A stretch of DNA of 37,479 nt from the IMG/VR virus record IMGVR_UViG_3300010370_000095, positions 1 to 37,479 of that record; one strand, 5' to 3'. Positions 2,869 through 27,171 of this stretch are shown here, piece after piece. Made by a program: the position numbers and the translations under genes. Below the pieces are notes generated by a model. It was not told the origin of the DNA. It saw only the letters and a program-made list of their open reading frames with translations, and did not search any database. The stretch's first letter is position 1; every line of letters starts with the position of its first letter. This DNA is from a virus.

Positions 2869-4713
2869 TCACGAAGGAGATTCTAGTTCGTCTATCATCA
2901 CAAAAAGTGTGCCTGACTTGGTGTTTTTCTTTTCAGGAATAGTGGTGTTCTTCGTGATCTTTGCCTTGGGTGAGAACAGCAAACCACTACCCGATTTCAG
3001 AACTGTCGGAGCAATCTTTACTGCTGCCTCTGTGGTGAAGCCTTGAATGCCATTCAGCGCAGTGTGGGTTGTTGCTCCCGAAACAGCCGACCGAACAGCG
3101 TAGCGCAAAACATTTCCAGTTGCTTTATACACAATCACGTCTTGGTACAGTCGTGCAACGTCTCCGGTTCGGAAATTGTACTGTGTACCGTAGTAGTCCT
3201 CGATTACGGTGTTTCCAGTGTGACCGGCTACCACGATGTTGTCGTATGCGTTTCTCAACCACTCCACATTGCTTTGAATAGGCAGGAACGAGTACGTGTT
3301 GCCACCCGTCCAACCACTGAACAGTAACGGGAAGTCTCCAGAGTTTCCACTGAAGCCCTGCATCACGGTGACACCAAACAAGAAGTACGTGGTGTAGTCT
3401 GCCGCGTTTTGGCGCACCGTTCGCGCAGCAGTGATGCCCATTGTTTGGGTCACACCGCTAACAATCATGCACGCACCGCTATCGTAACCAAACACGTATC
3501 CACCACTACCACCCGAAGTAGTGAATCCCCCACACACCCCGTCGAACAGTGTGAGTCCGGTGACATCAGAGTCCTCACGGATCACCATAGACGCTCCAAC
3601 TACCCCGTTGGGGGTGTCTGTGTACGAAACCGATGCAACCACACGGCACAGGTTGTCAACAGGGAACAGGGACTCTCCCAGTGGACCAGTCATTGTCAGG
3701 TGGTACACGGTGTAGTCCCCTGCGTAGTCTTGTTCCCACAGATGGGGAGCAGTGCTGCCCAGTCTGCTGTAGTCTGCAAGTGCAAGAGACACGCCACCCA
3801 TGCGGATGTGCACGTCGTCCAGCCACCCCTTGAACGGATAGTCTCCTGATGCACCACTGCCAACCATGAGAGGCGCAGTGCTGTTGCGAATCGCTCCGCA
3901 TAAACCCGCAGCAGAGTACAGTGAAGTGCCGTTCCAGTACGTCTTTATCGACGCAGAGCCGCCACTGGATGCCCATGCCACCGCAAAGTGATTCCACTGG
4001 TTTACCGTGACACCAGCAGGAGACACGTTCACGATTCCCTGATAGCCTGCACTGGCGTATGCCGTATCAGAGTAGTGGAACTGCACCTGATTGGACGTGG
4101 TGTCGTACTCCAATCGGAAAGAGTCATTGGTGCTGTTGTTTATGCCGTCTGCACTACGGGTCACGATGATGGGGTCGTAGTTTGAACTGGGCGTGGTTTC
4201 CAGGTACATCCACCCTTCCAACAGGAAGTACGGAGTGGCAGAAGCCGATGTACCGAACGCGGGCAAACGGATACCTGCTGCTTTCTGTGCAGCAAGATCC
4301 AGTAGAGTGCCCTTGAACTGTCCTGCGCGAACACCAATCTCCCCCGACACCCCCACCGTGCCGATGGTGGGCACAAAATCAGGCGCAGTCACGCCGCCCG
4401 AAGCGTAGTTGTTTACGATCACCGGAGTAATGGTGGACTGAAACACGCTTTCGTTCAGTGTAAAACTGCCGTACACCGTTCCCCTCAACAACTGCTCGGT
4501 GAACGGATTGATTTTTACTGGAAAAGTAAAAGTTCCTGAATTTTGATTAACTGTTGTAGTTTGAGCGAAAATTTCAGGCAAATCAACATCAACCAAAATA
4601 GGTGTGGTTGTGTTGCTGGCAAAGTCAGCAACAGAATAATTTTCGGAGTTGTACGGTAGTGGTGATCCGAATACCACTCCAGAAGAATCTAGGTTTATGA
4701 GATATTTACTCAT
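2869..4713 (-). CDS. LamG-domain virion/adhesion protein
   Basis: The 614-aa protein contains one LamG/concanavalin A-like fold at roughly residues 135-310: the strand YFLLEGWMYLETTP, later NQWNHFAVAWASSGGSASIK, an NGTSLY turn, and GWLDDVHIRMG closing the sheet. Such modules bind glycans in viral adhesins, so a receptor-binding or capsid/tail decoration role is inferred. The first about 70 codons (4500-4713) are AT rich, about 30-43 percent GC in sampled blocks, and abut the AT-rich 3' part of the 1060-aa gene; the rest is about 58 percent GC, so the N-terminus may have been acquired by recombination. The C-terminus is lysine rich (KAKITKNTTIPEKKNTKSG). The ATG has an AGGA ribosome binding site 7 nt upstream. 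It sits between the fibre genes and the neck genes. No enzymatic motif is visible. Confidence 0.65.
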   Translation of the reverse strand: MSKYLINLDSSGVVFGSPLPYNSENYSVADFASNTTTPILVDVDLPEIFAQTTTVNQNSGTFTFPVKINPFTEQLLRGTVYGSFTLNESVFQSTITPVIVNNYASGGVTAPDFVPTIGTVGVSGEIGVRAGQFKGTLLDLAAQKAAGIRLPAFGTSASATPYFLLEGWMYLETTPSSNYDPIIVTRSADGINNSTNDSFRLEYDTTSNQVQFHYSDTAYASAGYQGIVNVSPAGVTVNQWNHFAVAWASSGGSASIKTYWNGTSLYSAAGLCGAIRNSTAPLMVGSGASGDYPFKGWLDDVHIRMGGVSLALADYSRLGSTAPHLWEQDYAGDYTVYHLTMTGPLGESLFPVDNLCRVVASVSYTDTPNGVVGASMVIREDSDVTGLTLFDGVCGGFTTSGGSGGYVFGYDSGACMIVSGVTQTMGITAARTVRQNAADYTTYFLFGVTVMQGFSGNSGDFPLLFSGWTGGNTYSFLPIQSNVEWLRNAYDNIVVAGHTGNTVIEDYYGTQYNFRTGDVARLYQDVIVYKATGNVLRYAVRSAVSGATTHTALNGIQGFTTEAAVKIAPTVLKSGSGLLFSPKAKITKNTTIPEKKNTKSGTLFVMIDELESPS

Positions 4714-4735: not shown

Positions 4736-7700
4736 TCAAGACTTACTAATGTAAACCGCTCCCATAGAGTCGTAACGATTGCAATAAATCGTACCTGCCG
4801 CAGCATTGTGCGCCGATTGGAACACATACTGTACCATGCCGCAAGGCAAAGCAGTATACGTAGCACCAGATGCAACTGGAACAGGTAGTCTCCAAGCGCG
4901 AACCCCAGAACTAGGAATAGTGTTGTAGAACGTGTTGTTGACACCACCACTGCGAGTAGCAATTTTCCTATCACCAGTATTGCGAGGATCGTCTGCCCGA
5001 CGATAGTTCATCGTGCCTGTAATTGATCCAACACTTGTTGTTGCATCGAGTGCTAGGTTTACGTCTAGTTGTATCCGTCCACCATTAGTCGCAGCGAAAA
5101 ACAGCGCATTTTCTGAAGTGGAAGTCATGTATGGGGATCCACTGTCAAACATGAAAATGAACTGATTTCCACCTGCACCTTCGGGTACCAAGAACATAGT
5201 GGAGGTTTTTGTGGCGTAGAACGTGGCGGACAGTGCTCCTTCGCTTTTACCATTGCTAAAGAACGGCACAACCCCATATTTTGTTCCTGTGCGAGAAGCC
5301 CACTGTCCCGCCCCGGCGCCGGCAGACTGCTCTAGGACAGAAGTTAATGCAGGGTGCAGTAGAAGCCAGGCACCTCTACAGACAAAAGACGAGTTCACTT
5401 GCGCATACGCGATCTGTGGAACGAAGTTTCCGTTTCGATTCGAGTTTTGAACAGCACCAGCAATGGAGGGGTGTTTTGCAAAAATTCCACCAACACGGAA
5501 ACTACTGTTGTCCGCAACATGAACTGCGTTGCTTCTCCATCCATTAATACACAATACTCCAGTGGAGTAATTCCATCCAGATCCACCACCCACTGGCGTA
5601 ATTCCTCCCGCAGGCGGAGAGTCTGCGTAAGGTTGATCCAACACGTATCCGTCTCCAATATGGAGCACTGAAGTATTGTAAACCTTTACAGGTATTCTGC
5701 CTCCATTTGTTATCCACAACACCTTTTCTATACCTACGTTGGATCGGTCACCAATCAAGACACTATGAGTACTTACACCGTAAGTGTCATCAGCATATCC
5801 TCCCCATGTGGTGTCCGTTCCCGTGGACAAAAAGTTTTGCAGGAAACCTGCTCCTGAAGTTCCTGCAATGCTTTGCACTCCCAAAGTATAACCGTTAGCA
5901 CCGCGAACAAGAACTTCTTTTTGTCCTATAGTGAGAGACGAAGCAAGACTTGTTCCAGCAACATCACGATAGAACAACATTTCTAAAGTCGAACCGCTGG
6001 TACTGTCTGTGTTTCCGTGTGTTATACCTCTGTGAAGGTCTGCCAAATTCATATACGATAGTCCAGCCGCTTGCCCACTAGTAGGAGTAACTTTTACTCC
6101 GTAGAAATTAAAACTAGTATAAGACACTGGAGTAATACCGCCCACATAAGACGAACCGCTCGTCGCACCGCCAATACCTACAGCGGAACTAGTAGAAGAA
6201 CTCCACGAATTCACATAACCTATAGTCAGACCAGCAATCTTTAGTGTAACCAAAGGATACTGATGCCAATTCGCTGTGCTTGTGTTTTGGTTTGTGTACG
6301 CGTTGAACGCAACAGTTGCTCCAGATGTGGCTGTGGTTCCAGGAAAAACAGGAACGTGTGCGACCATACTAAACGTAGGGATGTCTATTGCTGTTTGACA
6401 TACCACAGAAGTAGCAGAGAATTCTGTATTGTATAAACTCAAATTCGACCGTTTGCAATCCAAGTAAACACTACCGTCCCTGTAGTCTGTTCCGTGTTCG
6501 GGACACAATGCACTGCCGTCTGTAAAATCAATAGTAGAACTCTTACCAATTATTCCACGCCCACATTGTGTGGTACATATGACTGGAGCGTTGTCTAAAC
6601 TGTTCATAACTGCGAACTTCTCGGTTTGAGAAATGGCACCAAAACTAGTTTGAGTGTCCAGTGTGTTTTCCGAGTACTTACTAATTTTCGATCCATAAGC
6701 AGAAATTGCAGTTCCAATGCCCAAGAAACCTAAGTGACGAATGCCAACAGTAGAATTTTCCAGTGCTAGTGCAGTTCCGTTTCGTGTGTGTGACCATCCA
6801 TTTTCTGTCACAGAAGTTATTGCCTGAGTCCAGTTTAGGGTGGCTCCTGTTGCTCCGTTGTGTAAAGTGTACGGAGATTGATTGCTTGCAAAGAAAATGT
6901 TTCGCAGTCCACGCAGAGTTCCATTTTTTAGATATAAAGTCCCGTCGTTGTTTGTGTAATTTGCTCGCAATACAACAGGATACGTGGACAGTATGTACGG
7001 GTCCGTAGTAATATGGCGATCACCCCCCACCCTTGATGGATACACGACTGTTCCGTTTTCACTTTTCCACTGATCCCAACCGTAGTATCCATTGGGTTCA
7101 GAGTACTGTGTTTCAGGGTAATTACTAGCAACCGTACACCATGCTTGTCCGTTTGCCAATCCACCTTCTGTCATCCACGCAGGGCAACGACCATCGTAGT
7201 TCACATTGTTGAATTGAACAGACAGACTAGTTCCTGAAGTTGTGGCTCCAAGTATTCTTCCAATTCCCAAAACCGCGTTTCCTTCTTCATAGGAAAACCC
7301 TGCATTAAAAAATCTGTCTCCATAAAAATACGTGGTATACGAACTCATGCCGTATGGGAAACCAACATCGTAACTCGTAGTAACAGGACCGTGAATTCCC
7401 CCTGCGGCAGTTCCACCGCTGGCTCCGTTTGTTTTATAGTTGCTGCGCGCACCAATTGCGGCGTTCACTATGGTGAAATACATTCCCTGATCCACTGCCG
7501 TGAACCCGTGGAATGTTGTGCCTGCTGTGGTGCCGTCAAACACTCGAACCGTGCCTGTGTGTCCGCCACCAGCAAAGTTTGCCAAGTTCCACGTGTAAGA
7601 GTCTACTTTGTACAGAGTGCGCTGTCGGAACGCATCAGGATCGCCCTCAATCACCAAATTTGCGCCCTGTGGGTGGTACAGGTCAATGTTGCTGCTCAGT

Positions 7701-7918
7701 GTGTACTCACCGCGCAGTAGCCGAACAGTGAGAACTGCCGTGCCTGCAATGGTGTACTCACGAGCCACGCTCATTGCCTTGCCCAGAGACTGGTACGGGG
7801 CAGCAGTGGTGCCTACACCCGTGGAGTCGTTTCCGCTGGGGGACACGTAGATCACCGTGTCGCTGTCTATGCGACGCAGATTGGCAATGTTTGGAACTTG
7901 AATGGGTGTGTTTGGCAT
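4736..7918 (-). CDS. Beta-helix tail fibre/tailspike-like protein
   Basis: The 1060-aa protein opens like right-handed parallel beta-helix (pectate-lyase-fold) tailspikes: TVIYVSPSGNDSTGVGTTAA and PYQSLGKAMSVAREY (residues about 21-55), then VRLLRGEYTLSSNIDLYHPQ and NLVIEGDP. The remainder is a long series of short Gly/Ser/Thr/Asn-rich strands, as in beta-helix or beta-prism fibres. A host-contact role is inferred; whether it degrades a polysaccharide cannot be read. Base composition changes sharply near 7380: the first about 180 codons are about 55 percent GC, the rest about 38-43 percent, suggesting an exchanged C-terminal part. The start has only a weak, distant AAGG (about 15 nt upstream) overlapping the end of the relic ORF at 7937-7999, so its translation may depend on that short ORF. 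Confidence 0.7.
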   Translation of the reverse strand: MPNTPIQVPNIANLRRIDSDTVIYVSPSGNDSTGVGTTAAPYQSLGKAMSVAREYTIAGTAVLTVRLLRGEYTLSSNIDLYHPQGANLVIEGDPDAFRQRTLYKVDSYTWNLANFAGGGHTGTVRVFDGTTAGTTFHGFTAVDQGMYFTIVNAAIGARSNYKTNGASGGTAAGGIHGPVTTSYDVGFPYGMSSYTTYFYGDRFFNAGFSYEEGNAVLGIGRILGATTSGTSLSVQFNNVNYDGRCPAWMTEGGLANGQAWCTVASNYPETQYSEPNGYYGWDQWKSENGTVVYPSRVGGDRHITTDPYILSTYPVVLRANYTNNDGTLYLKNGTLRGLRNIFFASNQSPYTLHNGATGATLNWTQAITSVTENGWSHTRNGTALALENSTVGIRHLGFLGIGTAISAYGSKISKYSENTLDTQTSFGAISQTEKFAVMNSLDNAPVICTTQCGRGIIGKSSTIDFTDGSALCPEHGTDYRDGSVYLDCKRSNLSLYNTEFSATSVVCQTAIDIPTFSMVAHVPVFPGTTATSGATVAFNAYTNQNTSTANWHQYPLVTLKIAGLTIGYVNSWSSSTSSAVGIGGATSGSSYVGGITPVSYTSFNFYGVKVTPTSGQAAGLSYMNLADLHRGITHGNTDSTSGSTLEMLFYRDVAGTSLASSLTIGQKEVLVRGANGYTLGVQSIAGTSGAGFLQNFLSTGTDTTWGGYADDTYGVSTHSVLIGDRSNVGIEKVLWITNGGRIPVKVYNTSVLHIGDGYVLDQPYADSPPAGGITPVGGGSGWNYSTGVLCINGWRSNAVHVADNSSFRVGGIFAKHPSIAGAVQNSNRNGNFVPQIAYAQVNSSFVCRGAWLLLHPALTSVLEQSAGAGAGQWASRTGTKYGVVPFFSNGKSEGALSATFYATKTSTMFLVPEGAGGNQFIFMFDSGSPYMTSTSENALFFAATNGGRIQLDVNLALDATTSVGSITGTMNYRRADDPRNTGDRKIATRSGGVNNTFYNTIPSSGVRAWRLPVPVASGATYTALPCGMVQYVFQSAHNAAAGTIYCNRYDSMGAVYISKS

Positions 7919-7925
7919 ACTGGTG

Positions 7926-7933
7926 TATTTAGC
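7926..7933 (-). promoter_or_regulatory. TAAATA late-promoter-like motif before beta-helix fibre
   Basis: The minus strand reads GCTAAATA, six of eight bases of the T4 late element, 8 nt before the fibre start codon. Transcription from it would give an almost leaderless mRNA without a ribosome binding site, which weakens the case. Confidence 0.15.
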
Positions 7934-7936
7934 CTT

Positions 7937-7999
7937 TTACGCAATACGCATGGCGGTTTTTATTTCTGCACTGCCTGTGAGTACTAGTGATGAAGGCAT
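7937..7999 (-). pseudogene. 20-codon fibre-gene relic (start of one fibre joined to a fibre-like end)
   Basis: This short ORF encodes MPSSLVLTGSAEIKTAMRIA. Its first nine codons and its upstream ribosome binding region are identical to the start of the 686-aa fibre gene. Its last codons and stop resemble the end of the 1061-aa fibre gene: the stretch around CGCCAT.CG.AT.GCGTAAA agrees at about 16 of 19 bases. I infer a collapsed third fibre gene that lost its body by internal deletion. It keeps an AGGA ribosome binding site, so it may still be translated as a leader peptide for the 1060-aa fibre, which starts 18 nt after its stop. Confidence 0.55.
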
Positions 8000-8009
8000 T
8001 GTGTGTGTT
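7973..8009 (-). repeat. 37-nt perfect direct repeat, copy 1 (relic)
   Basis: These 37 nt are identical to 10063-10099 and in the same orientation, exactly 2090 bp away. They cover the start codon, the first nine codons and part of the leader of the 686-aa fibre gene. Recombination between the copies would remove the whole 686-aa gene. Confidence 0.9.
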
Positions 8010-8028
8010 CCTATTTTACAATATCGGG

Positions 8029-10089
8029 TCAACCAACAAATATGAGACTGCAAACATATGGATCGGTTGGATATGTGCTACTGGTGTGAGTGTTAAAGAT
8101 CAAAAATCTACAAGAATTGGGCTGTGCATCGCCATTAGTTCTAAACCCTATATGTGCGCCCAAATTCTCTATCGGAGTGTAACCACCTTCTGCTGACTGA
8201 TTGCCTGTAGTCTGTTCATTCGCTGCACCAGAAAAAGCGTAATTTGATGGAAGTGCAGTAGTAAAGGTTACGGTATAATCACCCTGACCGTTCCGCGTAA
8301 CACTACTAACATTTCCGCTTGCTGCAATTACAGGAGTACCATTGTGACCATTAGGCATAGTAAACCTAACCCAAGCACGAATTCCGTATAGAGGAGCGGT
8401 TCCACTCGGAGCAGCAAAAGTTGCACCACCTAAAACAATACCAGAGGATGCCTTTATCGTACCGTTCACGTCCAGTGTCACGGTGGGAGAGGTAGTGCCG
8501 ATGCCAACCCGACCTCCACTGGGTTGAAGCGAAAGGTCCGAACCTCCCACTCCTGGAACCCAACCTTCCATCCACGCAACACTAGCAGAATCGTTTACGC
8601 CAATTTGCAACTGTCTGGTGTTGCCACTATTGGACACCAAAACGGTTCCTCTGTTTGCATTACCGTGAACTGTGCTGGCTCCGTAAACATGAAGCGGTGT
8701 CAGTGGAGTAGCGGTTGCAATCCCCACATTCCCGCCCGTGGTGAGCCGCATCCGCTCCGTACCCAGTCCACTGTCACCCGCAGTGTTTGTGTGTAAAACA
8801 AGGTCACCGTTCGAGCCGCCCAAATTCCGCGAACGCAGGTCGCGCACCAACAGGCTGCTGTACGGAATATCAAGCCCGTCAACAATAGCGGCACGGGTGT
8901 ACGGCTTGGCTTTGATAATGTACTTCGTGGCAAGATACGGGGGCTTGAGCACAGCAGAACCGCTCGGAACCGACGGCTCTGCGCTGGTTGCGTTCCACGT
9001 TGCAACATTCACCAGTGAGCCAATGCTTTCAGATCCGCCTTCTTCACCAAGGGCAAACGCGCTAAGTGCAGAGTTGTACGTGGTGTCGTTCTCGCTGGTT
9101 CCGTCCGCAACGGCTGCGGGATTCACGCCCACCGCAAACCGCCCACGCAGATCAGGGGTATTGAACGCAATCACTGCTATTCCTGACACCGTGGCAGTGA
9201 TGGTTGTTGTTATTGTTCCGGTCGAGTTCAAGAAACGGTAGTTTGCAGTGGCGTTTGCAGCGTTGCTCAAAGACCCCGCAGCAAACACCGTGTTGGGAAA
9301 CACAAACTTGCTGTTTGAGTAGTTGGGCAGCACCTGCACCAAGTAGTTACTGGAGCCTTCAGAAGTAATCACCACAGCCGTAATGTCTGCGTTGGAACCG
9401 TACAGAAGATTTGTTGACCACGCTGCACCACTGGTCTTGAACTGGATGTACCCACCAACAGTAATGTTGGCTGTAGTTGCAATGTTTAGTCGTGCCACGT
9501 ACCCGTAAATAGGCACGCGGTCGCCGGTGGTGTTGCGAATCTTGTCGTGGAGTTCGGCGTAGTCGCTCACGGAGTACGACGCGCCGTTGCACTCCAACCA
9601 CGTGTCAGGAATAGTGCCCCCTGCATACGGCGCAATGGTGCCCACAGGCTGAATCTCGTCTATCGCAACAGTGGACGACCCGCCGATTTGGGTGCCCAAA
9701 TAATTCACCACAATATGCCCTGAACCGTTGGTGGAACGAGTCAGTACAGGCTTCACAACGGAGCCTATGAAACTGGGTGGGGTTGCACTGAGTTCTCCTG
9801 CGGTGCTTCCCGACAGGAACAGCACCGGATACGACGCGCCTGATACAGCAGGCACTTCAATGTACCCGCTGTACGTGAGTTGAAAGGAGTTTGCGTCTTC
9901 CAGCGCGTTCACCACACCAACAACTTCTGCGTTCACTGCGGTGTCGCCTTGGGCTTTTACGTAGGTGTTCGTGGCAGTGTTCCACCGCAGCACATCACCC
10001 ACCGTGAAACCGTGCCCTGTCTGTGAGATAGACTCCTTGAGGGTCTTGGTGGTTGCTGCTCCGCCTGTGAGTACTAGTGATGAAGGCAT
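8029..10089 (-). CDS. Tail fibre protein with collar domain and swappable tip
   Basis: The 686-aa fibre contains a phage tail collar domain: IQPVGTIAPYAGGTIPDTWL, ECNGASYSVSDYAELHDKI (about residues 145-187), closed by PDLRGRFAVGVNP (about 310-322); the about 120 residues between are an insertion relative to the usual compact domain. The N-terminal about 60 residues (NAEVVGVVNA) resemble modules repeated in the 1061-aa fibre. Residues about 461-543 are the cassette shared with that fibre (TPLHVYGASTVHG, RVGIGTTSPTVTLDVNG). The last about 140 residues, from an AT-rich segment, form a tip of the kind found on many phage fibres (IRAWVRF, NVSSVTRNGQGDYTVTFTTA). No S74 chaperone domain is present. 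The role is inferred as receptor binding. AGGA precedes the ATG by about 12 nt. Confidence 0.8.
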   Translation of the reverse strand: MPSSLVLTGGAATTKTLKESISQTGHGFTVGDVLRWNTATNTYVKAQGDTAVNAEVVGVVNALEDANSFQLTYSGYIEVPAVSGASYPVLFLSGSTAGELSATPPSFIGSVVKPVLTRSTNGSGHIVVNYLGTQIGGSSTVAIDEIQPVGTIAPYAGGTIPDTWLECNGASYSVSDYAELHDKIRNTTGDRVPIYGYVARLNIATTANITVGGYIQFKTSGAAWSTNLLYGSNADITAVVITSEGSSNYLVQVLPNYSNSKFVFPNTVFAAGSLSNAANATANYRFLNSTGTITTTITATVSGIAVIAFNTPDLRGRFAVGVNPAAVADGTSENDTTYNSALSAFALGEEGGSESIGSLVNVATWNATSAEPSVPSGSAVLKPPYLATKYIIKAKPYTRAAIVDGLDIPYSSLLVRDLRSRNLGGSNGDLVLHTNTAGDSGLGTERMRLTTGGNVGIATATPLTPLHVYGASTVHGNANRGTVLVSNSGNTRQLQIGVNDSASVAWMEGWVPGVGGSDLSLQPSGGRVGIGTTSPTVTLDVNGTIKASSGIVLGGATFAAPSGTAPLYGIRAWVRFTMPNGHNGTPVIAASGNVSSVTRNGQGDYTVTFTTALPSNYAFSGAANEQTTGNQSAEGGYTPIENLGAHIGFRTNGDAQPNSCRFLIFNTHTSSTYPTDPYVCSLIFVG
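8462..8706 (-). repeat. 245-nt fibre cassette, copy 1
   Basis: This segment aligns without gaps to 10788-11032 with about a dozen mismatches by eye (roughly 95 percent identity), same orientation and same reading frame. It encodes the VGIGTTSP-type beta-prism stretch directly before the fibre tip. It marks the border between backbone-like composition and the AT-rich tip. Confidence 0.9.
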
Positions 10090-10099
10090 TGTGTGTGTT
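10063..10099 (-). repeat. 37-nt perfect direct repeat, copy 2 (686-aa fibre start)
   Basis: This copy contains the start of the functional 686-aa fibre gene; it is identical to 7973-8009. Confidence 0.9.
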
Positions 10100-10124
10100 T
10101 CCTCTACTTATCGTGTCTGTGTGT

Positions 10125-10187
10125 TCAAATCATGTGATTTTTGCGGTAGTCGCGGGCTTTACGGATGTACTGGGAGAACGGGATCAT
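10125..10187 (-). CDS. Possible 20-aa small basic ORF
   Basis: In the 112-nt gap between two fibre genes an ATG opens a short ORF encoding MIPFSQYIRKARDYRKNHMI, ending 35 nt before the 686-aa fibre start. Codons in the middle are mostly C-ending and the composition is GC richer than the neighbouring fibre tip. There is no clear ribosome binding site. It may be a gene fragment, a leader peptide or chance; no function is proposed. Confidence 0.2.
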   Translation of the reverse strand: MIPFSQYIRKARDYRKNHMI

Positions 10188-10201
10188 TCTGATTTTATGC
10201 T

Positions 10202-13200
10202 TTACGCTATGCGGATGGCGTAGCCAGTAAGGTGTACTAGGCAGACCCATTTGTTATTGTATACGATACCTTGGGCAGCAGAATTCTCATCCGAGTTTTG
10301 TCCATCAAGACTAACAGCGTTACCAGCAGATACCGTATGTTCAGTCCAACCGTTGGCAGCATTCACATTTGCCCGTGTGACATCCGCTGTTCGTAAAGTT
10401 CCCAAAGAATCGTGAATTTTACTCCAAAAGCCACTGCGAGAATCAGTAGTAGCGATGTTGGAAAATGCGTTTCCATCTGTTGCAAAAGTCAGCCATTTTG
10501 AAGCAGGAACCGTCCACACCTTTGACATAACCATGCCTGGATTTTCACTTTCAGTGCCCGCACTGTCTACCGACCCAACAAGATACACAAACCAAGTTCC
10601 CTCTCCCAAAGGAGTTGTTTGTGTCATTAGTTCGTAATTAGATCCAAAAGTACTGCTCCATGTAAACAAAGGAACAACTCTTCCAATACCCGCAGTATTT
10701 GTAGCCTTTGCCATCACATTGGTAGAACCGCCAAAGTTGCCTACCGTCACGGTTCCACTCGCGGTGATGTTCGTGGCTTTAATGTCCCCGTTCACGTCCA
10801 GTGTCACGGTGGGAGAGGTAGTGCCGATGCCAACCCGACCTCCACTGGGTTGAAGCGAAAGGGTTAAGCCTCCCAATCCTGGAACCCAACCTTCTATCCA
10901 CGCAACACTAGCAGTATCGTTTACGCCAATTTGCAACTGTCTGGTGTTGCCACTATTGGACACCAAAACGGTTCCGCTGTTTGCACTACCGTGAACTGTG
11001 CTGGCTCCGTAAACATGGAGCGGTGTCAGTGGTGTCGCAGTTCCTGTGCCAATTCCCAAACGACTTCCAGCAGAAGTGCTCCCAAACAAACCGCTACCAC
11101 TAAAAAATGCAGTTGCGCCAGTGATACGGAACCGCTCGGTCATGGTTACAGCATTACCCAACGGCGCGTCCACGCCGTCGTTGGTCAGGAATCGCAGTTC
11201 ACCCGCACCAGAAGTTCTACCAACCACAAGACTGGATCGAACGGCTGATCCTGCGGGCAGCGAAGACGCGTACGTACGGGCACCTGGGCTGGGCATGACC
11301 CCGTAGTTGATTTGCAGGTTTCCAGTATCGTACTCCGTGCCGATCACGTTCAGAGACTGCGCAGTAAGCCCACTCATTTCGTCTCCACGGTATCTGCTTG
11401 CCATGAGCACTCGACCACCTGGAACCGAGGCATCTACAGTAACACCCATACGCACGTATCCGTACACGTCCAGTGGAGCAATGATGCGGTTTTGGGTATT
11501 GGTTCCTGAATTCCACGGGGACCACGTACTGGACGGTCCAATGCCAACGCAGCCAGTGATTCCACGGCTGCTGGCAAACACAGACCCTGCCGCAATGCGA
11601 ATGCTTTCACGACCACGAGACGAGCCGTCGTACACACCAATCTTCAGGTCACCAGAGAACCCACTACGAATGTCGTCAACAAGGAACTGCTCCACGTCTG
11701 CACTGGCACCAGTAATAGAAGTTTCTGATCGCACGTCTCCGCGATACGAGAACAAGTACCCACCCGAAGCACTGGTTGCCATGAACAGGGGCTTGCGCAC
11801 CTGCCCTGCAATATTGGGCACCGATGTACTGAACGGGGTTGTCCCGCTCTCAAACGCACCACTTGTGCCTGCACAGTTCACGGGCAAGTAGTACACATCG
11901 CCCGGAGTAAGGGCAGAGTAAGTGGTTCCACTAATATCAAAGAACCCGTCAATCATTACATCAAAATACGAGTAGATGGAGACGGTTGCACTAGGTCCAC
12001 CTGTAACACCGCCGCGACCCACAACCATTCCCGCAATTTCTGCTTCGTCGGGAGTGTTTGCCTGTGCTTTTACGTATATGCCCTGTGCGTAGTTTGCTTC
12101 AGCCGTTCCGCCTGCACCGTCGCTGTACGTAAGGGTGACTCCCCCTGAATACGCTTTAAAGCGCACCGAGTCACCCAAGTTAAACTTGTGCAACTGGTTG
12201 ATGCGTGTGGTGATGGACGTAGAGTTTGCAATGTTGATGGGATTTCCCAGTTCACCGCCGGTGAACGGCAACACCATTGCAGCACTTGCTCCGGTTGCAA
12301 TGAGAACCGCTTTGTGTACCTGTCCCGGAACAGTGGGTTGAATCTCTGTGATTTTTCCTGCACTGTACGGGCTAAGGTAGTACGTTCTGCCGACAACCAA
12401 ACTGGAACCGTTTTCAGTAACCGATCTGAAGTCACCGTGGATTTCTCCCAACATGGTGATTTCGTATCGGTTGGTGCTCATTGTGGTCGGTGTTGCGGAC
12501 ACAATTCCAATTACTTCAGCGTTGGTTCCACTGGAAGCCTGTGCCGCGGCGTAAGCGTTTGATACTGCATCCAGTCGAACAGGTGTACCAAACGGGAATC
12601 CTGGTGAGCCTCCATATGTGATCACCTTTCGATTTGCGCCCTCACGAATACGCACAAACGCTTCACTTCCGTATGTGCTGCCCGACAGCACGTCAATAAA
12701 CGCGGTGGATCCGCTGGGAGAGAACCGCGAGAAAGTAATGGAGCGGTCTGCGGTTCGTCCAGTTGCGCTTGAAAGGGAAATTTCCACTCCGTGGTCGGCA
12801 GTGTTTCCGCCTTGAACCCTGAATCCTGTGCCGTAAACCGGAAGCGTGGTGCCAGCGTACGGGTACAGTCCCCAAGTGATTCCGGAGAACCCAATATGGG
12901 AATTGCTGCGCCACTCGCCACTGCCGCCTTGCAAGTCAGTGGGCAACCACAACCACTCCGCACTTTTACCACCACCGCGAGTCAAAATAATACCACCACC
13001 GCCAGCAGAGTTGATAAGGGCGTCAGTTCCACCAGCAGTTGCACCCAAAACAATGGCGTAGTCGTCAATGGTTACGTTGTTGGCGTTTACAGTGAATGTT
13101 TGTGCGTTGAACGTGACATCACCGTTAAAGGTAACACCCGCACCAAACACAATTGCCCCTTGGAAGGTGTGTCCGTTTGGAATATTGTCTGCAAGCACAT

Positions 13201-13387
13201 AGGTAAGAGTACCGCCAGCACTCACCGTAGCGGTTAGTTCGGAACTGCTTACACCGTCGTACACACGGATCTTGTTGACCTTGTACACCGAAGTGTTCGT
13301 GATGTCACGCCACGTGTTGAAGGTGTCACCCAGTTCAACTTCTGGAATTTGGTACGAGTTTGAGTCAGGTCCGGTGTTGGTTGCCAT
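10202..13387 (-). CDS. Long tail fibre-like virion protein
   Basis: The 1061-aa protein has an N-terminal module typical of fibre proteins in marine T4-like phages: VELGDTFNTWRDITNTSVYK and VNKIRVYDGVSSSELTATV (residues about 17-55), then a GVTFNGDVTFNAQTFTVNAN beta-repeat and GGGGIILTRGGGK. The middle carries two copies of a module with NAEVIGIVSATP and DEAEIAGMVVG, related to the N-terminus of the 686-aa fibre. Residues about 787-867 are the shared cassette (TPLTPLHVYGASTVHG, RVGIGTTSPTVTLDVNG). The last about 177 residues are AT rich and unrelated to the other fibre's tip, ending HLTGYAIRIA. It starts one base after the 62-aa gene's stop. It is probably a side fibre; equivalence to T4 gp34-37 or gp12 cannot be claimed. 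Confidence 0.75.
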   Translation of the reverse strand: MATNTGPDSNSYQIPEVELGDTFNTWRDITNTSVYKVNKIRVYDGVSSSELTATVSAGGTLTYVLADNIPNGHTFQGAIVFGAGVTFNGDVTFNAQTFTVNANNVTIDDYAIVLGATAGGTDALINSAGGGGIILTRGGGKSAEWLWLPTDLQGGSGEWRSNSHIGFSGITWGLYPYAGTTLPVYGTGFRVQGGNTADHGVEISLSSATGRTADRSITFSRFSPSGSTAFIDVLSGSTYGSEAFVRIREGANRKVITYGGSPGFPFGTPVRLDAVSNAYAAAQASSGTNAEVIGIVSATPTTMSTNRYEITMLGEIHGDFRSVTENGSSLVVGRTYYLSPYSAGKITEIQPTVPGQVHKAVLIATGASAAMVLPFTGGELGNPINIANSTSITTRINQLHKFNLGDSVRFKAYSGGVTLTYSDGAGGTAEANYAQGIYVKAQANTPDEAEIAGMVVGRGGVTGGPSATVSIYSYFDVMIDGFFDISGTTYSALTPGDVYYLPVNCAGTSGAFESGTTPFSTSVPNIAGQVRKPLFMATSASGGYLFSYRGDVRSETSITGASADVEQFLVDDIRSGFSGDLKIGVYDGSSRGRESIRIAAGSVFASSRGITGCVGIGPSSTWSPWNSGTNTQNRIIAPLDVYGYVRMGVTVDASVPGGRVLMASRYRGDEMSGLTAQSLNVIGTEYDTGNLQINYGVMPSPGARTYASSLPAGSAVRSSLVVGRTSGAGELRFLTNDGVDAPLGNAVTMTERFRITGATAFFSGSGLFGSTSAGSRLGIGTGTATPLTPLHVYGASTVHGSANSGTVLVSNSGNTRQLQIGVNDTASVAWIEGWVPGLGGLTLSLQPSGGRVGIGTTSPTVTLDVNGDIKATNITASGTVTVGNFGGSTNVMAKATNTAGIGRVVPLFTWSSTFGSNYELMTQTTPLGEGTWFVYLVGSVDSAGTESENPGMVMSKVWTVPASKWLTFATDGNAFSNIATTDSRSGFWSKIHDSLGTLRTADVTRANVNAANGWTEHTVSAGNAVSLDGQNSDENSAAQGIVYNNKWVCLVHLTGYAIRIA
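10788..11032 (-). repeat. 245-nt fibre cassette, copy 2
   Basis: This is the partner of 8462-8706, 2326 bp away in direct orientation. Recombination between copies would keep the reading frame and fuse the body of the 1061-aa fibre to the tip of the 686-aa fibre. Confidence 0.9.
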
Positions 13388-21387: not shown

Positions 21388-24300
21388 TTACATTCCGAAT
21401 CGACCACGAAGCGAGTTGTAGTTTTGCGCAATCTCTTGAGATACGAGGGCGCGACTATAGACGCGCACATTAGATATTCCGCCGCTCCATTTATAGTCAT
21501 TACCGTTGGTGTAGACATAGGAACCCTCTGTGGTGGTGTTTGCACCGCTTCTATCTCCAATGCCCACTACAGAACCAAAAATCTCTACTCCATCCAGCGT
21601 CTGCTCCCACACGGAAACTCCGTTGATGTACACTTTGAATTGTGTTTTTTGGGTAGATCCAGCAGTGGCAGGAATGTGATTGGCGGTGTACACAAACTGC
21701 GCCCACCGAGTGTCTATGGTATATGGAACGGTGTAAGCATATGCTTTCTGCACACCACTCAAACTGAAACTCCAGTAATACGCATTTCCTAGTGTTCCAA
21801 AATAAGGCAAGCCGCCCATTCCACCAAACATTTTCAATGCACTAGAAACATCAGAAGGTTTAACCCACGCTTCAAATGTATACGAGTTTCCTGTAAGGGA
21901 AGTTGCTCCAGATTCAATAACAGAAGACTTGCCGTCAAACACAAGATATCCGCCAACACTCGATATGTACTGCGGCTTTCCGAACACCTTGCCAGTAAAC
22001 CCGTTTGGTCCAGTGTCGTATACCGTTTGTGGCATATTTGATACTAGGTCTGTTACGTCTGGTTCGTTCCCGTCCACAACATCAATTCGTGGGCGATAAA
22101 ACAATACTTCGCTGCCTGGTATGCTACTGCCGTACAGGAACACACGCAATCCGGTGGGAACAATTCCAGACTGACTCCAAATAAAATCGTGGTAATTGTC
22201 GTCATTACCAGTAGATATTGGTGCGTATGTGCTTCCTCCACCACTTACTGTGTAGTATCCACTAGTAGACTCGTCTGCACCTGTTGCACTGCCGAAAGGA
22301 TGGATGTGTCCAACCGCAAGCACCCACGTGTTTTGCTTTCCTGTGTACGCATCACTGACACTATTCTTCACAGTAAAGTAAGGGTTGGTTTGAGAAAATC
22401 CGCTTTTTCGACTCAGGTAAGAACCATTGGATGGACCAAAATATACATCTCCATCCCCAAGCACTTTGCGATTAATCCACACAGAGTAACGATATTTTTT
22501 GCTAGTATCAACAGAAAACAACTGTGTGTTAAATCCAGCATTACTATTGAACGACGCACTAGTAGCAATCGTGGAGTGGTTTTCCCCTCTCCATATATTG
22601 TCGTAGTAACCCCACGGATTAACTTCTTTTTCGATTGAGTTTGCTTGTATTGATCCCGCCACAGCAGCCCAAGACGGATAGTTCACGCCTGTTCGGAAAG
22701 CGCGTCCGTCAATGTCTCCCCCGTTGTAAGGAAGAAGTTGCAGTCTTCCAAAATAGACTGTCTCGCCAGGCGTCAGTCCTGTAACTCCAACGGTTGTCAC
22801 TGTGGTGCTTACACTATCACTAACATACTTCTTCCTGCTGACTCTATACCATCCGCTTCCCATGTCCTCAATGGTGGCTGGAGCACTGTCATTAGTTCCA
22901 AGTCCGTAAATATACACGCCCAAGGCTGACGGAAGTGCGCTGCCATCAGCCTTTCGTATCCACATAGAGAATGTCCAGTGGGTGACACTAAATGTGGTGT
23001 TTCTCCACGAATTGGTTCCGTAACTGGGGTCGGTGTACAGGTTTCCGTTGGTGGAAATAACAGCCTTGTACACTTCATCGTTTCCAAGAGTTGGTTCTCC
23101 TGTTGCTTGGGTGACACGGGTAAATCCCACACCTTGACTGTTTGGATCCGAACGGAAGTTGTTTGGATCAAAACCCGACTTCAGCACATTGTACGGCGTA
23201 GGCGTGAAATGCAAATCACGCAAAAGATCGCTGCTGAATCCGCTAGCAAAAGAGCCAATACACAAAGTGTTGCCAGCATCAAATCCGTACACCAAATTCC
23301 TTGTAGTCACCCAATTTTCCGCTGACGGAGCCACAACAGAAACCACACGCCTACCCGTAGAGCGTGACGCGTTCAGTCCACGATCCCCGTTGAGGAACAC
23401 ATCAATCTTGTTGGACGAGTCACGAACCGCTTCTCCAACACATACACCAAAGCACACTCCTGACACATGAGGATCGTACACAATACTGTTCTGAAGCACT
23501 CCTGTCTGGTCGCCGCATGGACGGAATCCAAACACTCCTGTTGGCGGCAGGGACGCGCCAGGATACATGAGCGTTCCGTTTGGAAGCACCGAATAGTACG
23601 AACTGGTTTGTTGTGCGGCGGTTCGGTCTTGTTCGTTGTACGAGCGGCTGAACAGCACCGAGTCAAAGCGCACGGAAGGAGTAGCCGACAAGTCACAATT
23701 GGTGTTTCGTGATCCAAGCAGCCCGTATCCGAAACTCAGCCCTTCTCTGGTCGTACGATACACCACGAAAATGTCTGCGTCATCGGTGATCTTCAGTGGA
23801 CGCTTCAGATATAGGTGCTGTCCCGTGAGCATTGCAGCAGCACTGCTGCCAGTGCCTGTGGTGTATCCCAATCCAACCACGCCACCGAGGGTGACACCCG
23901 CGTACACCGAAGCAGGAGCAAACACGATTCCACCGTTGAACGAAACGCCTGTTGCGCCACCAAATCCTGCTGTTTGCAGGGTGGGACGCAGTTTGTCAAC
24001 GGTGACTCCTGCGTACACACGAGCATTCATATTTGCAGTAGACACAAAATTCGGGACAACAGGATTTCCGTTATACGAAAGGTCCAAAAGAGTAACTGAT
24101 GTTTTTGGATCACTAGACGAGGCTGCTCCATAAAATGAAGAGTCAAAGTAGAATGTGCGTCCATACCCTGCAAAAACGGTTCGCTTTACAACTCCATCAA
24201 CCCGATACACGATATTTGGTTCCGTGTACTCTACCTCACAAACAGTATTATCGTAGGCAAAATAGTTACTTGTCGCATTGGCTCCAGTAGTAATCGCACC

Positions 24301-27171
24301 GCGACTATTACCCGATTCATACACTAAATATTGCCTTGAAATGGTATACGCCGTTCCACTTGACCCATATGAGTACACAGCGTAGTCGATATTATCGTAG
24401 TAATTACTTGCAGCAGGATTGGTGGCAAGTCCCATCATAAACAGACGACCGTGTGTGAACCCCCCACACAATCCGTTTGCCACGAAAGCCAATTTAGTTA
24501 CTGGATTTGTGGAGCGAACGGATTCTGTAAAATATCCACTTGCGGCTGTTTGTGTAATATGTGCAATACCGTTCCACCGATCCCATGTCGGTGGCAGGGC
24601 GTGATTCGCAGACGGTGAAGCGTCTGTCCACACATCGGCACTTGCGCCGTTGGCAACCGAACCACACACCCCGATGTTCTCTGGCTTCAGCCACAGCACC
24701 AGTCCACGCATACCTTCAGGAGACGGTGAGTTCTCTTTGCTGTTGAACCACGCGTAGGTGCTGCCTAGGGGCGCACCAACCGGATTGTGTGCAGTCAACC
24801 CAAACTCGTCCACCACAGTGTACGTGTACCCCATTCCACTACCAAAGAACAGTGATCCTGCTGCGGCAGTGCTGCCGTCCGGTCCGGTTTCTGTGGTGGA
24901 ACCAATGTACGGATTGTAGCCCCGAGGGTAGAAGTCCCCCGTGGCTCCCGACCAACCACCCGCAGGCAGGGACGCACCCGGAGGAGTGGTTTTGTACGGG
25001 TGACCCTGCGGCAGGTTGCCGTCCAGGTTGTACTTGTGGGCAAGGTAGCCTTCAACCTTTTGGCGGTCGCCGTCTGATAGTGCGCCTTGGTACGCAAGAA
25101 TTTCAGCAATCTCTCCGTCGAATGCTCCAGCAAAACTGCTTGAAGCACGCATTCCAATCAGTGTGTTTGATACATTTAGTTGTGCAAGGTCCACAGCAGA
25201 CGATGACGCTGTTCCGTAGCACACTCCGTTCACAAACAACGACAGTGGACCAGAACTGCCTGCACCAATACTGTATGCGGTGGAAACCAATTTCCACGAT
25301 CCAGTTCCACCGATAGGAGCAGTAACGCCCGAGTATACACTACTTGCCGAACGATTAAATGTGGCAACGCAAACCGTTCCCCCTGTTACACCAAACCACA
25401 CACCGTGGCGTTCAACGGAATTAGACAAAACATATGCCTGTGCGCTTCCGTCCCAAGTGGTAGCAGTGCTAACTCTGCCTGGCTTCACAACAGTAAAGAA
25501 AGACCGATCCCTAGTGATACCCAGTGCACCCATTGTTGGACCACTGAATCCCAAACTAACCAGTGCGCTTCCGTAAGCAGGACCACTAAAGTTGTACTGC
25601 ACCGGACGCGTGCGAATGGTTGGATGGGTATTCAGTGACTCGCGTTGAAAATTGGGAGTAAGCCAAACATTAGAGTTTGGATACAAAGAAGGGTGAGAAA
25701 AGGTGTGTCCACCAACAGCACTCCTCCAGTGCTGCACGCCAAATATGTCTTCACGGTCAACACTTCTCCCACTAGGGTCAGAGCCGATGCTAAACGCGTC
25801 AGGCAACACTCCCCATCCTGCGGTGATTCCACTGCTGGTATTGCCTGCAATGTTGTACCCACTCAACCACACCTGAAGAGTCGCGCCCTTTACTTGGTTG
25901 GGCAAGAAATACCCGCCGCGCAGGTCATTGAATGTGCGAAGTGCATAGGGGGTGTACCGACCTATCACAGGAACTTCAAATGTGGTCTGTTGAGACGATG
26001 ACGACACTGTGTTGTCAATAGCCTGTTTGACCAACACCGATCCAAACATTCTCATTCCAGCAGGGTGAACAATACGCTTCAACACATCAAAGTACGTGTC
26101 CAGTGAAACAGCACTCTTCAACTCATACGAAAACTCCTGATAGTAGTTTCCGTCTTGAACAAACTTGTTGCTTGACACCTTGCCACGGTTGCCCGAGAAA
26201 TAGCCTGGGTAACGAGTGACTGCACTACGCTTCACGATAACTTTTGCCTGTGCGTTTCCGGTGTTGCTCACAATGGTGGCAATCACGTCCGCTTCGTAGT
26301 TGATTCCTGAATTGATAATGCCGATTTTCTTTACGCTACCGGCTAACCCAGTCTGTTCAATACGAGCAATGAATCCAACACCATTGGCAGCAACAACCGA
26401 AACGATGTCCCCTACCTGATACCCTTCTCCCTGCAACTCAACGAAAAACTCACCAAGCACGCTGTACGAGGTTTCTGTGTACGAAACGCTGTCTTTGGAC
26501 AGCACGGTTTCCCTGTTTGGCAGAAAATCGCCATTGATGTCCTTGATGAAGAATTCGGTGATGGGCAAGCCATTAAACGAGTACTGTACAACCGAGTCAA
26601 TGGTGGCACTGGCAATCAGATTTGCAGCGGAATCGTACTGCGCAATGGTTCCGTTTTTCACAGAGAACAGATTGGCAGCGTTCACACTTGTGGTTTTGAC
26701 GGAAACGGGTTCAATCCACTGCCCATCAGACGGTTTCAGTATGTCTGTTTTGGGATAGTAGATTTCCAAATCACTGTCGTACAGAACACGGAACAAGAAC
26801 TTGTAAGAGTTCTCGGTGCCTTTGTTTCCGTAGAAGTCACGGATCTTTTTCAGCAGGGTCTTTTTGTTGGGCTTGTTTCCCAATGAGTCTGTTGCAAGCA
26901 GTTCAGGAAACGACAGCAGATACGTGTTCTTGAAGTGGGAGAAAAACTCTTCCACGTTTCGGTCAACATCGGACACCGTGTCCAGTTTGCCCAACACATA
27001 CCCAGGCTGTCCTTGAGAATCCATCCACTCGTAGTACGCCTTGATGAACAGTACAAGTTTACGGTAATCCGTGCGGATGAAAGTAGGAAACTGCTCCTCA
27101 ATAAACGGAGCAATCATGTCCTCCAAGGCTTCTGCACTGGTGTTCAGAATGATGTTTTTGATGTCTGCCAT
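21388..27171 (-). CDS. 7: Baseplate wedge gp7-like protein fused to LamG-module array
   Basis: The 1927-aa protein starts with the gp7 core: FIEEQFPTFIRTDYRKLVLF (about residues 23-42), then RDFYGNKGTENSYKFLFRVL (about 111-130), corresponding to YDFYSTKGIEASYKFLFKVL of T4 gp7, and RIVHPAGMRMFG near 365, matching the RFVHPVGFGF of T4. T4 gp7 (1032 aa) is the central wedge protein holding gp8, gp10 and gp53. From about residue 430 onward, roughly 1500 residues are concanavalin/LamG-like modules: LQVWLSGYNI (~430), GEIAEILAYQ (~685), GLVLWLKPENIG (~820), THWTFSMWIRK (~1395), YRYSVWINRK (~1557), YTFEAWVKPS (~1760), ending NVRVYSRALVSQEIAQNYNS. The last about 500 codons are AT rich. GAGAGG precedes the ATG by 6-7 nt. 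The core assignment is firm; module borders are approximate. Confidence 0.82.
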   Translation of the reverse strand: MADIKNIILNTSAEALEDMIAPFIEEQFPTFIRTDYRKLVLFIKAYYEWMDSQGQPGYVLGKLDTVSDVDRNVEEFFSHFKNTYLLSFPELLATDSLGNKPNKKTLLKKIRDFYGNKGTENSYKFLFRVLYDSDLEIYYPKTDILKPSDGQWIEPVSVKTTSVNAANLFSVKNGTIAQYDSAANLIASATIDSVVQYSFNGLPITEFFIKDINGDFLPNRETVLSKDSVSYTETSYSVLGEFFVELQGEGYQVGDIVSVVAANGVGFIARIEQTGLAGSVKKIGIINSGINYEADVIATIVSNTGNAQAKVIVKRSAVTRYPGYFSGNRGKVSSNKFVQDGNYYQEFSYELKSAVSLDTYFDVLKRIVHPAGMRMFGSVLVKQAIDNTVSSSSQQTTFEVPVIGRYTPYALRTFNDLRGGYFLPNQVKGATLQVWLSGYNIAGNTSSGITAGWGVLPDAFSIGSDPSGRSVDREDIFGVQHWRSAVGGHTFSHPSLYPNSNVWLTPNFQRESLNTHPTIRTRPVQYNFSGPAYGSALVSLGFSGPTMGALGITRDRSFFTVVKPGRVSTATTWDGSAQAYVLSNSVERHGVWFGVTGGTVCVATFNRSASSVYSGVTAPIGGTGSWKLVSTAYSIGAGSSGPLSLFVNGVCYGTASSSAVDLAQLNVSNTLIGMRASSSFAGAFDGEIAEILAYQGALSDGDRQKVEGYLAHKYNLDGNLPQGHPYKTTPPGASLPAGGWSGATGDFYPRGYNPYIGSTTETGPDGSTAAAGSLFFGSGMGYTYTVVDEFGLTAHNPVGAPLGSTYAWFNSKENSPSPEGMRGLVLWLKPENIGVCGSVANGASADVWTDASPSANHALPPTWDRWNGIAHITQTAASGYFTESVRSTNPVTKLAFVANGLCGGFTHGRLFMMGLATNPAASNYYDNIDYAVYSYGSSGTAYTISRQYLVYESGNSRGAITTGANATSNYFAYDNTVCEVEYTEPNIVYRVDGVVKRTVFAGYGRTFYFDSSFYGAASSSDPKTSVTLLDLSYNGNPVVPNFVSTANMNARVYAGVTVDKLRPTLQTAGFGGATGVSFNGGIVFAPASVYAGVTLGGVVGLGYTTGTGSSAAAMLTGQHLYLKRPLKITDDADIFVVYRTTREGLSFGYGLLGSRNTNCDLSATPSVRFDSVLFSRSYNEQDRTAAQQTSSYYSVLPNGTLMYPGASLPPTGVFGFRPCGDQTGVLQNSIVYDPHVSGVCFGVCVGEAVRDSSNKIDVFLNGDRGLNASRSTGRRVVSVVAPSAENWVTTRNLVYGFDAGNTLCIGSFASGFSSDLLRDLHFTPTPYNVLKSGFDPNNFRSDPNSQGVGFTRVTQATGEPTLGNDEVYKAVISTNGNLYTDPSYGTNSWRNTTFSVTHWTFSMWIRKADGSALPSALGVYIYGLGTNDSAPATIEDMGSGWYRVSRKKYVSDSVSTTVTTVGVTGLTPGETVYFGRLQLLPYNGGDIDGRAFRTGVNYPSWAAVAGSIQANSIEKEVNPWGYYDNIWRGENHSTIATSASFNSNAGFNTQLFSVDTSKKYRYSVWINRKVLGDGDVYFGPSNGSYLSRKSGFSQTNPYFTVKNSVSDAYTGKQNTWVLAVGHIHPFGSATGADESTSGYYTVSGGGSTYAPISTGNDDNYHDFIWSQSGIVPTGLRVFLYGSSIPGSEVLFYRPRIDVVDGNEPDVTDLVSNMPQTVYDTGPNGFTGKVFGKPQYISSVGGYLVFDGKSSVIESGATSLTGNSYTFEAWVKPSDVSSALKMFGGMGGLPYFGTLGNAYYWSFSLSGVQKAYAYTVPYTIDTRWAQFVYTANHIPATAGSTQKTQFKVYINGVSVWEQTLDGVEIFGSVVGIGDRSGANTTTEGSYVYTNGNDYKWSGGISNVRVYSRALVSQEIAQNYNSLRGRFGM

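Follow-up and report, generated by a model that had tools for sequence, protein, structure and literature searches.

In an uncultured T4-like virus, two neighbouring tail fibre genes share a nearly identical in-frame cassette of 245 nt, and in each gene the cassette lies directly before a C-terminal tip unrelated to that of the other, which raises the question of whether the locus switches tips within one genome, as an earlier note on this DNA had proposed, or records exchanges between genomes. The window (herein W) is the whole stretch of 37,479 nt that was analysed; f1, f2 and f3 are its consecutive fibre or fibre-like genes, slots 1 and 2 are the f1 and f2 positions, and names such as L050 denote relatives. 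The long f1 and the collar-domain f2 encode two tail fibres. Among 50,697 records of isolate phages there was no DNA match to the window and no protein match to the N-terminal part of f2, and a 1640-aa baseplate-region protein adjoining the fibre genes reaches <60% against all of them. The features on which the argument rests are as follows.

10202..13387 (-): f1 fibre gene, 1061 aa
11096-13387 (-): f1 body, at 94-97% nucleotide identity in L049 and L050, most sequence beyond it being replaced
11006..11059 (-): f1 proximal linker LGIGTGTATPLTPLHVYG, the 5' border of the cassette
10788..11032 (-): cassette, f1 copy
10787..10834 (-): f1 distal linker VGIGTTSPTVTLDVNG, the putative crossover point ahead of the tip, resembling the MAT capping loop (PMC10769870)
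10202..10787 (-): tip of family A on f1, about 194 aa (VGNFGG.TNVM.K ... YAIRIA, stop)
8029..10089 (-): f2 fibre gene, 686 aa, with a Phage Tail Collar domain (PF07484) at aa 150-186
8680..8727 (-): f2 proximal linker VGIATATPLTPLHVYG, the 5' border of the cassette
8462..8706 (-): cassette, f2 copy, with a counterpart in L050 f2 at 91%
8461..8508 (-): f2 distal linker VGIGTTSPTVTLDVNG, where homology between W and L050 stops and unrelated tips start
8029..8461 (-): tip of family B on f2, about 143 aa (VLGGATFAAPSGTAP..G.RAW ... IFVG, stop)
4736..7918 (-): f3, the neighbouring fibre-like gene, 1060 aa; its start is conserved and marks the downstream limit of the exchange region

A shaft cassette shared by two fibre genes

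The two cassette copies align without gaps and differ at 11 of 245 positions (95.5% identity), close to the dozen or so that the earlier note had counted by eye, and they are direct and in the same codon phase, both on the minus strand, in f2 (g686) and f1 (g1061). Their longest alignment covers 255 nt with 14 mismatches (BLASTN E 1e-112), six of which fall inside 14 nt, and their longest exact run is 75 nt; just beyond the cassette, identity drops to 5-12 of 30 positions, the chance level. Nine codons differ between the copies, seven of them non-synonymously. The sequence after the cassette is indeed unrelated, with zero BLASTP similarity between the f2 and f1 tips. The description of the tips as much more AT rich holds (G+C 44%/46% in the tips versus 55%/53% in the bodies), the size of the difference being 7-11 points.

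The cassette is one unit of the fibre shaft and has linkers of the form VGIGTxxPxxxLxVxG at both ends. Shaft units bearing this linker are widespread in fibres, and the common motif VGIGTTSP swamped our first search with the cassette, which was redone without it. The 95.5% identity of the two W copies, as against 91% to the L050 copy, was suggestive of recent gene conversion within the genome; however, the excess sits at the two ends of the cassette. Its core (nt 8-227) is star-like, with 6, 5 and 5 two-against-one sites among the W f1, W f2 and L050 copies, such that the W copies are about as distant from the L050 copy as from each other, and recent copying within the W genome is therefore not claimed. 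The star-like core, the preponderance of non-synonymous changes and the wide distribution of linker-bearing shaft units would all agree with the cassette having been copied or independently imported as a structural spacer, with no role in exchange and with tips that differ for other reasons. We consider this unlikely, given that pairs of close relatives repeatedly lose homology at the linker just ahead of different tips and that tips cross slots together with their downstream flank, as described below.

Tips exchanged among relatives and across slots

Tip exchange at the end of the cassette is real, for close relatives share body and cassette and differ in their tips. The search of relatives for the cassette beside a different tip, which the earlier note had suggested, yielded f2 of L050, whose body and cassette are 95.7% identical to those of W up to the cassette end, after which the tips are unrelated. 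Near-identical bodies are likewise joined to unrelated C-terminal tips in f1 of W, L049 and L050 (94-97% identical, all diverging at one same point) and in f2 of L057 and L059, which are 97.8% identical over 17.6 kb, differ over 1.3 kb in which the f2 tip is replaced, and then return to 98.6%. Sequence comparison shows that a given body and cassette can carry different tips. Conversely, L092 and L094 have bodies that are 90-95% identical and B tips that are 40% identical and sit in different slots, whereas L092 and L115 have B tips at 84% and bodies at 58-67%; by these pairwise identities, body and tip histories appear to disagree. L069 has the same arrangement built on a different cassette (103 nt, 94%), which ends at about LDVNGTLKV ahead of a tip A and a tip B. 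Across the relatives, 14 of 76 3' homology ends lie near a linker where 6.6 would be expected (8/2000), a nominally significant excess counted over non-independent pairs; many homology junctions in these genes are located away from linkers.

The tips are probably receptor-binding. Tip B is matched by phrog_11355 ('tail fiber protein'); structure models of the two tips were weak (pLDDT 68 and 62), and a fold search with these low-confidence models gave no significant structural match. Family A is found in both f1 and f2 of L049, in f2 of L115 and L091, and in L069 and L089; family B in f1 of L115, L091 and L094 and in f2 of L092 and L093; and a third tip, C, in f2 of L050 and f1 of L062. Tips A, B, C and others are shown in both slots, and the distant relatives L115 and L091 are the mirror of W, with tip B on f1 and tip A on f2.

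More informative than the cassette is a further direct repeat, 47 nt long (10053-10099 and 7963-8009), which the earlier note does not mention. Two features belong to it.

10053..10099 (-): the true f2 start, one copy of the 47-nt repeat
7937..7999 (-): a relic of 20 codons, MPSSLVLTGSAEIKTAMRIA and stop, in which an f2 start runs into the last codons of a tip-A gene; a scar of tip replacement

Positions 7973-8009 repeat the W f2 start without a mismatch (37/37), and 7924-7955 agree with the 3' end of the L089 tip-A gene at 31 of 32, matches that show a remnant of an overwritten tip A in W. An f2 start is the neighbour expected only behind a tip sitting on fibre 1; in W and L092, however, the f2-start relic lies 28-29 bp beyond a tip B in the f2 slot. 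Tip B, stop, spacer and f2 start of L115 f1 align contiguously with tip B, stop, spacer and relic of L092 f2 (83%, 467 nt). The relic is found behind both f2-slot B tips (W, L092) and behind none of the 18 other distinct f2 genes examined, an association that rests on two independent cases and has a chance of 1/190, or 3/190 if the distant tip of L074 is counted as B. Tip B in the f2 slot is shown to trail a piece of the f2 start, as expected of a tip that had come from the f1 slot, and because of this relic it most likely went from slot 1 to slot 2.

The flanks also bear on a possible assembly artefact: the contig is metagenomic and its 245-nt repeat includes 75 consecutive identical nt, so that a misjoin there could have swapped the two tips. 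In W, tip A on f1 is followed by the 112-bp f1-f2 spacer, as it is behind tip A in L049, and the kind of relic junction seen behind tip B recurs in L092 and L093, two contigs of samples other than that of W. Such spacer and relic flanks cannot arise from misjoining at the cassette, and we give an artefact hardly any credence.

We thus favour, with a probability of roughly 80%, modular fibres in which the linkers are crossover points for exchanging tips, both among co-infecting phages and from one slot to the other. Each fibre would consist of a conserved body, one or more linker-bounded shaft units and a C-terminal tip, the shared cassette being one shaft unit that moved between fibre genes, and tips could be exchanged with or without the preceding shaft unit. 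The upstream crossover would occur by homologous recombination in linkers or cassettes and the downstream junction would be illegitimate; the tips would fold independently and bind receptors, and selection on host range may drive their exchange.

A proposed built-in switch and other mechanisms

The earlier note had envisaged a built-in switch based on a 2326-bp deletion. In such a switch, frequent recombination between the two cassettes, by this deletion or a reciprocal duplication in concatemers, would let one genome produce virions with alternative tips. The copies are suitably direct, in-frame and identical over 75 nt; the predicted deletion would leave an open chimeric gene of 1010 aa; L115, L091 and L094 have an f1 gene that ends in tip B; and tip B and the relic in W could stem from an ancestral unequal-crossover duplication followed by internal deletion. 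However, the event is one-way, removing the f2 body, and the nearer relatives retain f2, only the distant L060 and L061 seeming to be without it. None of the contigs of relatives that were compared carries the 2326-bp deletion chimera, and no recombinase-type signature was found in the W fragment. At the cassette position there is no f1/f2 DNA repeat in L049, L050 or L115; because L049 and L050, 95% identical over 10 kb, are without it, the arrangement is not kept. The proposal is thus not borne out, and such a switch is very unlikely.

Invertible fibre-tip switches of the Mu/P1 type have inverted repeats around alternative tips and a dedicated invertase. Only short, scattered and imperfect inverted repeats were found here, none flanking the tips, and no invertase was detected in the Pfam-scanned subset of proteins of this 37-kb fragment. 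Diversity-generating retroelements have a nearby reverse transcriptase and repeat differences at adenines of one copy; the cassette mismatches affect every type of base in either copy and show no adenine pattern, and the W record, a fragment, has no RVT_1 match. Clustering of contig ends in fibre genes, considered as a sign of mixed tips, was judged by eye and unconvincing. It is improbable that f1 and f2 form a two-slot exchange pair, with tips regularly hopping between the slots of one or sister genomes through shared linker cassettes, both pairings kept in each population and relics arising as a by-product. What can be demonstrated is exchange between phages over evolutionary time, often across slots, and the locus is a hot spot of such exchange rather than a programmed switch.

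Comparison with known systems

Tip swapping in phage fibres is known, and its path is usually erased. The T-even gp37/gp38 locus has a gp38-type adhesin with glycine-rich motifs; the W fibre proteins gave no match to the gp38 family in PHROGs or Pfam. According to 1998 work as cited in PMC6466182, T4-type phages exchange receptor-binding ends by recombination at short conserved motifs. The W locus is alike in principle, whereas its motif is the VGIGTxxPxxxLxVxG shaft linker and the tips of its group cross between neighbouring fibre genes, leaving start and end relics. A protein-profile survey of phage receptor-binding proteins describes ongoing domain shuffling, in which fibre proteins that are otherwise unrelated share fragments of high identity (PMC10684548); the recent mosaicism is shared, and the DNA of the W locus additionally yields crossover points, slot crossing and relics. 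In phage 0305phi8-36, intragenomic transfer was proposed for a domain common to two virion proteins, an ancient pair at 41% identity (PMC2147016), whereas the corresponding W copies are 95.5% identical in DNA. We regard the W locus as a variant of the modular exchange of tips already known from phage fibres. With two tip families in both pairings, and with the relics, the direction in which host range evolved can be read using only the sequence, and the f2-start relic is a simple scar that can be searched for in other phages.

Bdellovibrio MAT fibres swap tips on one shaft, as in Bd2133 and Bd1334, and carry the capping-loop motif V-G-G/N-pi-xx-P-xxx-L; their superfamily has a conserved N-terminal beta domain of ~130 aa, of unsolved structure, after a signal peptide (PMC10769870). 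With the whole of f2 as query, aa 436-565 match the Bd2133 shaft (PDB 8OND; phmmer E 7.3e-12), and the cassette plus tip match it at E 9.5e-5. Shaft similarity across the cassette, a capping-loop-like motif and exchanged C-terminal tips are thus common to both, whereas the N-terminal half of f2 holds a phage collar domain, the Bd2133 match being limited to the shaft, and W has two adjacent phage genes with DNA-level scars that give the direction of exchange. The resemblance of the shaft linkers to a solved Bdellovibrio fibre suggests a shared reason why exchange is tolerated, namely that the tips fold on their own and stand behind a trimeric shaft that is capped.

The fibre genes and their common cassette

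The window, an IMG/VR virus record of 37,479 bp that is probably a fragment, has its main genes on the minus strand. It includes neck, sheath-stabiliser and baseplate genes of T4 type (PF11649, PF16724, PF21379, PF04965 and PF06714). The fibre genes and the cassette copies that two of them hold are as follows.

10202-13387: fibre gene 1 (f1), 1061 aa, adjoining f2
8029-10089: fibre gene 2 (f2), 686 aa, containing a Phage Tail Collar domain
4736-7918: third fibre-like gene (f3), after f1 and f2
10788-11032: cassette copy in f1
8462-8706: cassette copy in f2

The earlier description of an alignable, in-frame cassette directly before unrelated, AT-richer tips holds: the copies differ at 11 of 245 nt (94.5% identity when extended to 255 nt) in the same codon phase, and directly beyond them f1/f2 identity is at background level. 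Six of the mismatches cluster within 14 nt, and of the nine codons that differ, seven change the amino acid. The window's tips are indeed unrelated and lie 7-11 G+C points below their bodies, with AT-richer tips in all 12 genes measured in the window and its relatives. The cassette encodes one shaft unit flanked by the linkers (V/L)GI(A/G)...P..PLHVYG and VGIGTTSPTVTLDVNG. A search of solved structures with f2 gave a sole match, the mosaic adhesive trimer fibre Bd2133 of Bdellovibrio (8OND; PMC10769870), over the shaft with the cassette included (E 7e-12; E 9.5e-5 for cassette plus tip alone).

The f1-f2 spacer also holds a 20-codon ORF (MIPFSQYIRKARDYRKNHMI and a stop; 10125-10187, minus strand), which stays in frame with a 3-nt insertion in the related contig L049 and is partly deleted in L050; it may be a further relic or else a small gene. 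Elsewhere, a concanavalin-like Laminin_G_3 domain occurs in a 614-aa protein (2869-4713) and at the C-terminus of a 1927-aa baseplate-type protein (21388-27171), a second case in the window of a binding domain common to two genes, with a weak DNA repeat between them (3584-3630 and 26441-26487, 72%).

Different tips on the same bodies

Contigs L049 and L050 are each about 95% identical to the window over 10 kb of baseplate genes and f1 body. The three f1 bodies lose their match at one common point (window 11096), past which each is different, although L049 matches the window again for 160 nt (around the linker and first part of the tip) before diverging anew. Between the window and L050, f2 identity is 95.7% up to and including the cassette, after which the tips are unrelated; the break falls at the linker that also marks the parting of f1 and f2 in the window. 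The cassette thus does lie beside other tips in related genomes, the outcome that the earlier note proposed to look for. Contigs L057 and L059 give another clean tip replacement: they align for 17.6 kb at 97.8%, differ by a replaced 1.3 kb (f2 tip and next ORFs) and resume at 98.6%. Separately, a 257-nt middle module of f1 is 89.5% identical between L050 (13725-13981) and L115 (6883-7139) within bodies of about 64% DNA identity, indicating that shaft modules travel between distant phages too.

To the earlier note the two cassettes looked like a built-in switch, a reading that is not supported. Cassette identity is higher within the window (95.5%) than to L050 (91%), but the excess lies in the cassette ends; in the core (nt 8-227) all three copies differ from one another to about the same extent, so a recent copy inside this genome is not demonstrated. 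Moreover, recombination between direct repeats would be a one-way deletion that loses the f2 body, and the f1/f2 repeat is absent from close relatives. We found no f1/f2 chimera among the contigs, no inverted repeats flanking the tips and no reverse transcriptase in the window fragment.

Tip families in both slots and the scars behind tip B

The same tip families occupy both slots, the tip positions on f1 and f2. The window pairs tip A on f1 with tip B on f2, and the mirror image, tip B on f1 and tip A on f2, occurs in L115 and L091, which have bodies at 58-69% identity to those of the window. Tip B is also found on f1 of L094 and f2 of L092 and L093; tip C on f2 in L050 and f1 in L062; an S74-like end on f1 in L053 and f2 in L057, L076 and L087; and a family E tip on f1 in L082 and f2 in L070. 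L092 and L094 have bodies 90-95% identical and B tips only 40% identical, in different slots, whereas the B tips of L092 and L115 are 84% identical on bodies of 58-67%; by these comparisons, tip and body histories disagree. Common bodies and cassettes with different tips, together with families in both slots, support the proposed tip exchange.

Tip B in slot 2 appears to carry a record of its origin. The f2 start (10053-10099) recurs as a second direct repeat at 7963-8009, in a 20-codon relic (MPSSLVLTGSAEIKTAMRIA and a stop) beginning 29 bp past the f2 stop, with 37 nt (7973-8009) identical to the f2 start. L092 and L093, which are 99.8% identical to each other and counted as one case, have a like relic (MGSSLVLTGRTKNTHK and a stop) 28 bp past the stop of their slot-2 tip B. 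Where tip B sits on f1 (L115 and L094), the tip lies 32-40 bp ahead of the genuine f2 start. L115 and L092 align uninterrupted from tip B across its stop and the spacer to nt 27 of f2 (83%, 467 nt), a block placed at the far end of f2 in L092. This is explained most simply if tip B, with its downstream flank, was transferred from slot 1 to slot 2. Window 7924-7955 (32 nt) has one mismatch to a stretch of L089 in which a tip-A gene ends and the spacer begins, and most simply the incoming tip B overwrote a tip A whose last codons survive. Such f2-start relics were found in none of 18 other distinct f2 genes examined and in both cases of slot-2 tip B (chance 1/190, or 3/190 if the distant L074 tip is B). 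An assembly misjoin at the cassette is very unlikely because of the flanks behind both window tips.

In L069, a tip-B gene is followed by MTEFIRIA and a stop, and a separate f2-start relic lies behind a tip-A gene, as related debris. Its two tip genes have a common 103-nt segment (94%), unlike the window's cassette, ending at about LDVNGTLKV just before tips A and B, so the window-type arrangement arose independently with another cassette. Several short fibre-like ORFs before f2 in L069 (1-4914), three starting MST[IL]K, have 50-190-nt repeats in common and resemble additional carriers of tips or a reserve of them. A relic in the f1-f2 spacer of L091 (6433-6660) starts like these extra fibres (MSTLKANTISPIGS...) and ends tip-like (...SFIVVG and a stop), seemingly what is left of a fibre gene after loss of its central part. 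In two contigs obtained solely via the cassette search, adjacent fibre genes also have common segments: L010 (1-5019 with 5037-11609; 151 nt, 81%, ending at a VGIGT linker) and L024 (1402-5037 with 5389-9165; 361 nt, 89%).

A probable route for tip exchange

The best-supported mechanism places an upstream crossover in shaft linkers or cassettes, presumably by homologous recombination, and a downstream junction that is inexact, probably illegitimate, and would leave relics. Exchange would occur mainly between co-infecting phages, and intragenomic exchange is also possible. The exchange history is read from the sequences themselves; the chemistry of recombination, the binding of receptors and the part played by selection are inferred. 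Modular tip exchange is known, and this case stands out by its mirror-image pairings and by scars that give exchange a direction.
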